This document shows, piece by piece, positions 11,926 through 30,594 of a DNA stretch of 33,604 nt (its first letter is position 1; each line of letters opens with the position of its first letter). The translations under genes were made by a program, and so were the position numbers. The notes beneath the pieces were generated by a model. The model was given only the letters and a program-made list of their open reading frames with translations. It was not told the origin of the DNA and made no database searches. The stretch lies in assembly GCA_944384015.1 (NCBI GenBank), contig CALWRT010000116.1, forward strand, positions 1 through 33,604, read 5' to 3'. Source of the DNA: an uncultured Lachnospiraceae bacterium. Its GTDB lineage: Bacteria; Bacillota; Clostridia; Lachnospirales; Lachnospiraceae.

Positions 11926-12010
11926 AAGTGTGTCAATAGGGAAAAGGCGACATAAGCCAAACGTTCTATAATGTATGCTGTGAATCGCAACTCCGTTTTG
12001 GAAAAAAAGC

Positions 12011-12045: not shown

Positions 12046-12274
12046 TGCTGTGACATTGATAGCGTTGAAGCGTGAGGTTGCTGCCTGAGAATGGCAGGTT
12101 TTCCGTGGAGCGAATGTCAAGTTAGGAAACTGGCGACAAGTCACTGTACAATTAGCAGAAAGGTCCACCACAGAGTGGATACCACGTGTGAGGCTTAAGG
12201 ACACACACGGAAGAGTGTACAGTCACCGCTTGTCGTACTGAGTGTTAAAGTACGAAAAGGAGGCGACTTTTTTT
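12046..12274 (+). promoter_or_regulatory. structured 5' leader of the S10 operon, probable autoregulatory RNA
   Basis: The long non-coding leader has several perfect arms. There is a hairpin CTGCC (12081-12085) with GGCAG (12093-12097). A closing helix pairs GCGACAAG (12133-12140) with CTTGTCGT (12229-12236, last pair G-U), extended by ACTGTACA (12143-12150) with TGTACAGT (12216-12223). Inside are small hairpins, TCCAC/GTGGA and CGTGTG/CACACG. The sequence GGCGAC occurs again at 12262-12267, directly after the ribosome binding site and before seven T's. GTCG of the closing helix could therefore pair with either copy, a possible switch hiding the rpsJ start. In E. coli the S10 leader is controlled by L4; whether L4 binds here is unknown. 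Confidence 0.6.
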
Positions 12275-23338: not shown

Positions 23339-23391
23339 TAAAAATGTGCAGGAAAGGTATTCCGAAAAGGAAAAATATCATGTATAATCAT

Positions 23392-23505
23392 AGTGGAAAG
23401 TTACTATTCACAGTCTTGATTCAGAATGAACAACACACGCTTACGTGCAAGCGCCACGCGTTGGTTGTTCATTCTGAATCGGCTGTGAATAGTAACCAGT
23501 GGAAA
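23392..23505. mobile_element. MITE-like long palindrome flanked by 8-base direct repeats
   Basis: The outer arms are 14 bases (23400-23413 with 23483-23496), perfectly complementary. The inner arms are 17 bases (23418-23434 with 23464-23480), also perfect, separated from the outer ones by a 4-by-2 internal mismatch. The ~29-base tip can form a further small hairpin (CGCTT/AAGCG). The sequence AGTGGAAA lies directly before the left arm (23392-23399) and again one base after the right arm (23498-23505), as expected for a target-site duplication. No transposase is encoded. The hairpin would form in the 5' region of the adk mRNA. Confidence 0.7.
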
Positions 23506-23537
23506 AAACGATATGATTTATTGGGAGGATATTGTAA

Positions 23538-24182
23538 ATGAAAATTATCATGTTAGGAGCGCCGGGAGCAGGCAAAGGGACACAGGCCAAGATGATCTCT
23601 GATAAGTATGGGATTCCCCACATCTCCACAGGGGATATCTTCCGGGCCAACATCAAGAATGGCACGGAGCTGGGCAAGAAGGCTAAGACGTACATGGATC
23701 AGGGACTTCTCGTTCCTGATGAGCTGGTTGTAGACTTGGTTGTAGACCGGGTGGCTCAGGACGACTGTGAGAAGGGCTATGTGCTGGATGGATTTCCCCG
23801 GACAATTCCGCAGGCAGAGGCGCTGGATGCTGCTCTTGCGAAGCTGGGATCGAAGGTGGACTATGCAGTCAACGTAGAGGTGCCTGACGAGAACATTATT
23901 ACCCGTATGTCCGGGAGACGCGCCTGTGTGTCTTGCGGAGCGACCTATCACATTGTGCATATACCGACGAAGGTGGAAGGCATCTGCGACAGATGCGGAG
24001 CTAAGTTAATTCTGCGGGATGATGATAAGCCGGAGACTGTGAAGAAACGCCTCGCGGTATATCACGAGCAGACCCAGCCTCTTATTGATTATTATACAAA
24101 GCAGAATGTCCTTGTAGAAGTTGACGGGACAAAGGACATGGAAGAAGTATTCGCGGCAATCTGCAATATATTGGGAGAATAA
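23538..24182 (+). CDS. adk: adenylate kinase, zinc-LID type
   Basis: A 214-residue enzyme: ATP + AMP to 2 ADP. The Walker A loop is GAPGAGKGT (residues 7-15), the AMP-binding region includes ISTGDIFR, and DGFPRT (84-89) is the signature. The LID has four cysteines, C130/C133 and C150/C153, as in zinc-binding Gram-positive enzymes. Linkage to secY and map is the usual arrangement. The ATG follows a GGGAGGA site, just downstream of the palindromic element. Confidence 0.98.
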
Positions 24183-30346: not shown

Positions 30347-30594
30347 TTGTATATTCCTCCAAAATTTGATATTATTTTACTGTAAGAGTCCAGTCTGGAA
30401 GCAGAGACGGACGGATATGCTTTCGAGACGCTTACCCCTAGAGGCCAGACGAGCCTGCAGGCCGGATTGCTCAGAAAGGGGCAGAATGACGGAAGCGCGC
30501 AGCGCGAAGCTGTTCTGGGACTTTTATACGCGGAAGCATCCGTTTTGGCGGATATTTCCGTTTTAATCAGAAAAGTCTTGGAGGGTTACAATTT
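30347..30594 (+). promoter_or_regulatory. promoter and ~210-base leader of the nucleotidyltransferase gene
   Basis: TTGTAT (30347-30352), 17 bases, TATTAT (30370-30375) is a plausible promoter. The leader holds a hairpin at 30532-30559 (GGAA..ATCCG with CGGAT..TTCC, two mismatches) followed by GTTTTAATC, which could be a weak attenuator. A GC-rich GCGC-GCA-GCGC motif lies just upstream. No protein-like reading frame is convincing. No known riboswitch was recognised. Confidence 0.4.

Follow-up and report, generated by a model that had tools for sequence, protein, structure and literature searches.

The window analysed here is a stretch of 33,604 nucleotides from an uncultured Lachnospiraceae bacterium, whose draft genome (G000) comprises 2.78 Mb in 187 contigs and is 93% complete. 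Between secY and adk, the latter an open reading frame at 23538–24182 on the plus strand with homologues in relatives, lies a near-perfect palindrome of 97 bases. An earlier note made from the sequence had given its length as 98 bases; the palindrome is there, but it spans 23400–23496. The coordinates confirm the two tiers of perfect arms around a tip of about 29 bases described in that note. A perfect 14-bp terminal inverted repeat, GTTACTATTCACAG, occupies 23400–23413 (plus strand) and 23483–23496 (minus strand), an inner perfect arm of 17 bp at 23418–23434 pairs with its counterpart at 23464–23480 (both plus strand), and the 29-base tip (23435–23463) is itself partly paired. The 8-base flanking duplications reported previously are also present, as AGTGGAAA at 23392–23399 and again at 23498–23505, with one extra C (23497) between the element end and the right copy.

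The two further properties attributed to the palindrome held up. It contains no coding capacity beyond chance ORFs, and as RNA it is predicted to form a very stable hairpin (−57.2 kcal/mol, z = −9.25), with none of 200 dinucleotide shuffles equally stable. A supposed degraded second end at 2438–2447 (GGTTACTATT) was discarded, having three mismatches to the terminal 14-mer, when 1.6 such matches are expected by chance in the window. A role as an intrinsic terminator was rejected, as terminator-like calls were confined to the tip and no T-run follows the hairpin.

A dispersed family of short elements

The earlier note interpreted the palindrome as a miniature inverted-repeat transposable element (MITE) with a target-site duplication, and proposed a search for further copies. 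Relatives were found at approximately 28 places in the same genome, dispersed over many contigs and including about 25 near-full copies together with partial ones. The exact terminal 14-mer, GTWACKATTCACAG, occurred 38 times in this genome versus 0 for a reversed control pattern, while an exact-interior pattern (arm plus end) was too strict and recovered the window copy alone. The window copy matched the covariance model of the family at 62.9 bits (E 6e-18) on the minus strand, which is the family orientation.

The family is modular, with three forms sharing the ends GTTAC[T/G]ATTCAC[A/G]G: form A of about 97 bp (the window copy), form B of about 100 bp, and form AB of about 195 bp, in which A is followed by a short hairpin and then a second, branched hairpin. 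The motif CTGTGAA is found twice in AB as a direct repeat, once after the A hairpin and once at the 3′ end, so that deleting from one to the other yields precisely form A, and the window copy may be a derivative of the 195-bp AB shortened in this way. There are also mini-versions of 36–43 bp that lack the full interior; some have perfect or near-perfect 8-bp duplications, and such duplications are present around forms A and B too.

Across many genomes, the 8-bp flanks were perfect in 25 of 82 elements bounded by terminal inverted repeats and matched at seven or more positions in 41, whereas 2000 flank permutations gave 0.61 on average and never more than 4. The excess was confined to length 8, with none or one perfect pair at lengths 4–7 and 9–12. 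In this tally the window copy falls on the negative side, since the additional C puts its perfect repeat out of register.

An empty site with a single AGTGGAAA, which the earlier note had suggested looking for, is present in a congener (G003, locus L049) whose Adk is 96% identical at the amino acid level. Here the aligned intergenic region lacks the element and reads TATAATCATTAGTGGAAAAACGATATTATC, with the single AGTGGAAA at the insertion point flanked by TATAATCAT(T) and AACGATAT..TTGGGAGGATAT, whereas the window reads TATAATCAT-AGTGGAAA-[element]-C-AGTGGAAA-AAACGATATGATT. Adk homologues were found in 28 of the 31 genomes searched, and the element was absent from the adk leader in the two other congeners and in the more distant relatives examined. 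On the genus scale the insertion is therefore a recent event, not a leader conserved with adk. A hairpin without other copies and conserved at this site in relatives, which would have spoken against a mobile element, is thus the reverse of what was observed. Shared terminal repeats, dispersed copies, a duplication of fixed length at unrelated flanks, the empty site and a short length without a transposase gene (97 bp, with forms up to about 195 bp) identify the palindrome as a MITE with a target-site duplication, as the earlier note proposed, and ordinary in kind.

The ends were detected in 99 of 397 genomes of the family and were strongly enriched in about 30 other genera, with controls giving 0–2. 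Named contigs of Merdimonas, Eisenbergiella, Bariatricus and Lachnoclostridium contain an exact match to a 24-mer from the A end, and chicken is given as the source in at least one of their titles. No plasmid or phage DNA similar to the AB element was found. The highest count in one genome (G255) was 262 ends (137 + 125), many of them at contig breaks. Interiors there are of several kinds and some insertions are nested, and we describe this as a very active or recent expansion. Another genome (G161) contains recurring 31-bp palindromes nested in larger elements (L170, 618–648), each consisting of two 14-bp ends and a 3-bp spacer. Separately, a 3.5-kb unit (L162, 1267–4794; G195:C1:524066–527593) is bounded by GTTACTATTCACAG and GTTACTATTCACGG with a perfect 8-bp duplication, CTCGCAAC, and carries pdxT, pdxS and a GntR/aminotransferase regulator but no transposase. 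We read it as a putative vitamin B6 cassette moved between element ends, hence the ends may move host genes.

The folded interior and Clostridiales-1 RNA

Covariation was assessed in an alignment of 34 AB elements from several genera. Double compensatory changes were seen in 35 of 61 pairs, 95% of cells were able to pair, and compensated cells numbered 205, whereas column shuffles gave 57 and sliding the partners gave no more than 48. The sequences of the long arms differ between genera while their complementarity is kept, and AB remains about 195 bp long throughout. In the tip, family copies conserve a CGTGCTTGCACGTAAG-like motif (minus strand), which in the window copy is mutated to GGCGCTTGCACGTAAG. 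The interior is thus conserved in structure, not in sequence, which is unusual for a MITE; strong covariation is not predicted by a purely selfish element mobilised end to end, and it counts against our best explanation. Counts of G-U versus A-C showed no clear G-U excess on either strand, and the outcome depended on the strand used to infer the structure. As RNA of neither strand is clearly favoured, the constraint may act on DNA as well as RNA, where hairpin extrusion or arm-to-arm copying could be responsible.

One tentative reading, to which we give some credence, is that AB is a transposable structured nucleic acid, with a long hairpin and a branched interior that selection maintains through compensatory change, spreading among gut genera on IS66-type ends and having an evolutionary link to Clostridiales-1 RNA (RF01699). 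Its interior would then be either a folded RNA or a DNA hairpin that transposition requires or that regulates it.

A somewhat less probable alternative is that these are genes for a structured RNA or for single-stranded DNA, akin to RF01699, that a transposon happens to carry, the folded interior being selected for a function of its own. The compensatory changes and the steady length of AB across genera agree with this, as does the resemblance of the GTGCTTGCACG tip and the ATAAGCA/TGCGCAT motifs to RF01699, which the element matches below threshold at 36 bits (E ~6e-5). However, the best RF01699 score (36.4 bits) lies below the curated gathering cut-off of 48, G-U pairs are not clearly above A-C on either strand, and forms A, B and the 36–43-bp minis carry 8-bp duplications without the full interior. 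In the reverse comparison, our family model gave a substantial full-length match at 1 of 37 true RF01699 loci, at 16.7 bits, hence the element is not filed under RF01699, and membership was rejected on both scores. The sub-threshold match and the shared tip motifs nevertheless suggest a possible link.

Clostridiales-1 RNA is listed as a probable RNA that is probably not cis-regulatory (PMC2864571). Like the element, it is multi-copy within one genome and has a closing stem, a first long hairpin with a GCUUGCACG-type tip and a second with an AUGAGCA/UGCGAAU-like loop; unlike the MITE family, the RF01699 copies viewed had no target duplication evident by eye. The genome carrying the window contains about 27 true Clostridiales-1 copies above the Rfam cut-off, several with apparent partial tandem copies downstream, a number that is very high for a trans-acting RNA. 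A weak RF01699 match (28.6 bits, below the 48-bit cut-off) was also seen in the window at 30385–30524 on the plus strand. That the interior covaries while the element transposes raises the question of whether some multi-copy "structured RNA" families of Clostridia travel as, or descend from, MITEs.

Terminal repeats and a candidate transposase

Genomes were searched for transposases of the IS66 family alone. A PF03050 search of the 93% complete draft detected none in the genome carrying the window, so mobilisation in trans is what we infer; IS66 transposases were present in 9 of 20 MITE-rich relatives. One of these MITE-rich genomes (G312) possesses a divergent single-ORF IS66 element of 2267 bp with identical GTTACTGTTCAGGG ends and a transposase of 546 aa (Pfam DDE_Tnp_IS66, 4e-23; NCBIfam IS66, 2.5e-47 but under the cut-off of that model), around which no 8-bp duplication was recognisable. 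In plasmids, tblastn with this transposase retrieved IS66 elements including ISGst1 and ISGka4. A scan for inverted termini flanked by 8-bp duplications located the ends of these two: GTAACTATTCAG/GTAACTATTCAC in ISGst1, where AAAAGAAC is perfectly duplicated, and GTAACTATTCAG/GTATCTATTCAG in ISGka4, where AACTCGTC is perfectly duplicated. The end form they share is GTAACTATTCA[C/G]. Both therefore combine GTNAC-type ends with 8-bp duplications, as expected of IS66/ISBst12-type elements, and we place them in the single-ORF group because each carries one transposase gene. In a relative from the human gut (MT837605, 52% identical), the end is GTTACTGTTCAGAG. In the ISBst12 group, ISDge4 has ends GTGACTACTCAGCA/GTAACTGCTCAGCA and makes an 8-bp repeat on transposition (PMC12898284).

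The best IS66/ISBst12-type ends match the MITE 14-mer at 11–12 of 14 positions, and no IS66 element with exactly GTTACTATTCACAG ends was found anywhere searched. The earlier note had suggested looking for a transposase with matching inverted repeats: similar ends occur on IS66-family elements, but a parent with the exact ends was not recovered. In viral contigs, the end followed by CC gave 11 matches, of which two (L214 and L217) had a paired partner end nearby and none was a parent element; viral scans contained no relatives of the gut IS66 protein. No transposase was recognised among the ORFs recurring beside the ends across loci. Among the papers listed for MITE, IS66 and ISBst12, none contains both MITE and ISBst12, and GTTACTATTCAC matched a plant transcriptome paper only.

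Taken with the duplication length, the ends make an IS66/ISBst12-type mobilising enzyme well supported. It is very probable that the palindrome is a non-autonomous MITE and that its 14-bp ends are of the type on which single-ORF IS66-family (ISBst12-type) transposases act. Such a transposase, supplied in trans, would have bound both ends and inserted the element into AGTGGAAA, thereby duplicating it. Mobilisation of the same MITE by a transposase of another family that makes 8-bp duplications (e.g. ISL3, IS1595, IS256) is improbable. Duplications of this length are not unique to IS66 and no autonomous copy with the exact ends was found, but ends resembling GT[A/T]ACT[A/G]TTCA[C/G] occur on several IS66-family elements, and those of the other families are not known to begin in this way.

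The adk leader and comparison with known elements

The insertion point lies three bases past a TATAAT box (23383–23388, plus strand), a putative −10-like promoter element that is kept in G003 directly before the insertion site. The adk ribosome-binding site GGGAGGA (23523–23529, plus strand) and the start codon are intact and outside the hairpin. A consensus scan called no full or strict sigma-70 promoter before adk, hence the promoter is proposed from the conserved TATAAT. Lying between this box and the ribosome-binding site, the element probably forms a 5′-leader hairpin of adk, and the gene would still be expressed with this stable hairpin in its leader.

That the hairpin is instead a cis-regulatory RNA of adk, a leader or attenuator conserved for regulation, is highly improbable. 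Its position in the adk 5′ region, its RNA fold (−57 kcal/mol) and the ribosome-binding site lying clear of it would suit such a role, but the idea of a conserved leader is refuted: the nearest congener has an empty site with one AGTGGAAA, the element is missing from the adk leaders of the congeners examined and of other relatives, and its dispersed copies adjoin unrelated genes. At gathering threshold Rfam reports nothing here, yet it does detect both the S10 and the S4 leader in the window. The hairpin may have been co-opted as an adk regulator in this species alone.

Using a rough ORF heuristic, raw counts placed 12 copies in this genome between tandem genes, 12 between divergent and 1 between convergent genes, with 1 possibly intragenic and 2 at contig edges. 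This hints at a preference for promoter regions, or at selection against other sites. Elsewhere in the window, a solo element end, GTTGCGATTCACAG (11978–11991, minus strand), follows a TATAAT-like box and precedes the S10-Clostridia leader (12057–12139); it is likely what is left of another insertion, this one in the promoter region of ribosomal-protein genes.

The family is abundant and apparently undescribed in gut Lachnospiraceae, tied to IS66/ISBst12-type ends, and the window copy shows such a MITE inserted in the leader of a gene that is essential, with an unoccupied site in a congener for clean comparison. What sets it apart, in our judgement, is this empty site together with its IS66/ISBst12-type ends and the covariation of its interior, which is unusual. 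Members of the ISBst12 subgroup of IS66 (ISGst1, ISGka4, ISDge4) share with it ends of the form GT[A/T/G]ACT[A/G][T/C]TCA[C/G] and an 8-bp target duplication. They are, however, autonomous elements with a transposase (ISGst1 and ISGka4 of about 1.6 kb), whereas the window MITE is gene-free at 97 bp, and the last end bases are AG in the MITE versus CC, CA or GG in ISBst12-type elements. Bacterial MITEs with known parents, such as MITEAba12, are likewise short and non-coding, with inverted ends, a target duplication and many dispersed copies, but the window family differs in its long hairpin interior covarying across genera, its A, B and AB modules, and the lack of an exact parent among the elements found. 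BOX, RUP and Correia/NEMIS repeats are also short intergenic mobile repeats that fold into hairpins, and BOX too is modular, but their ends, hosts and target rules differ from those of the window family.
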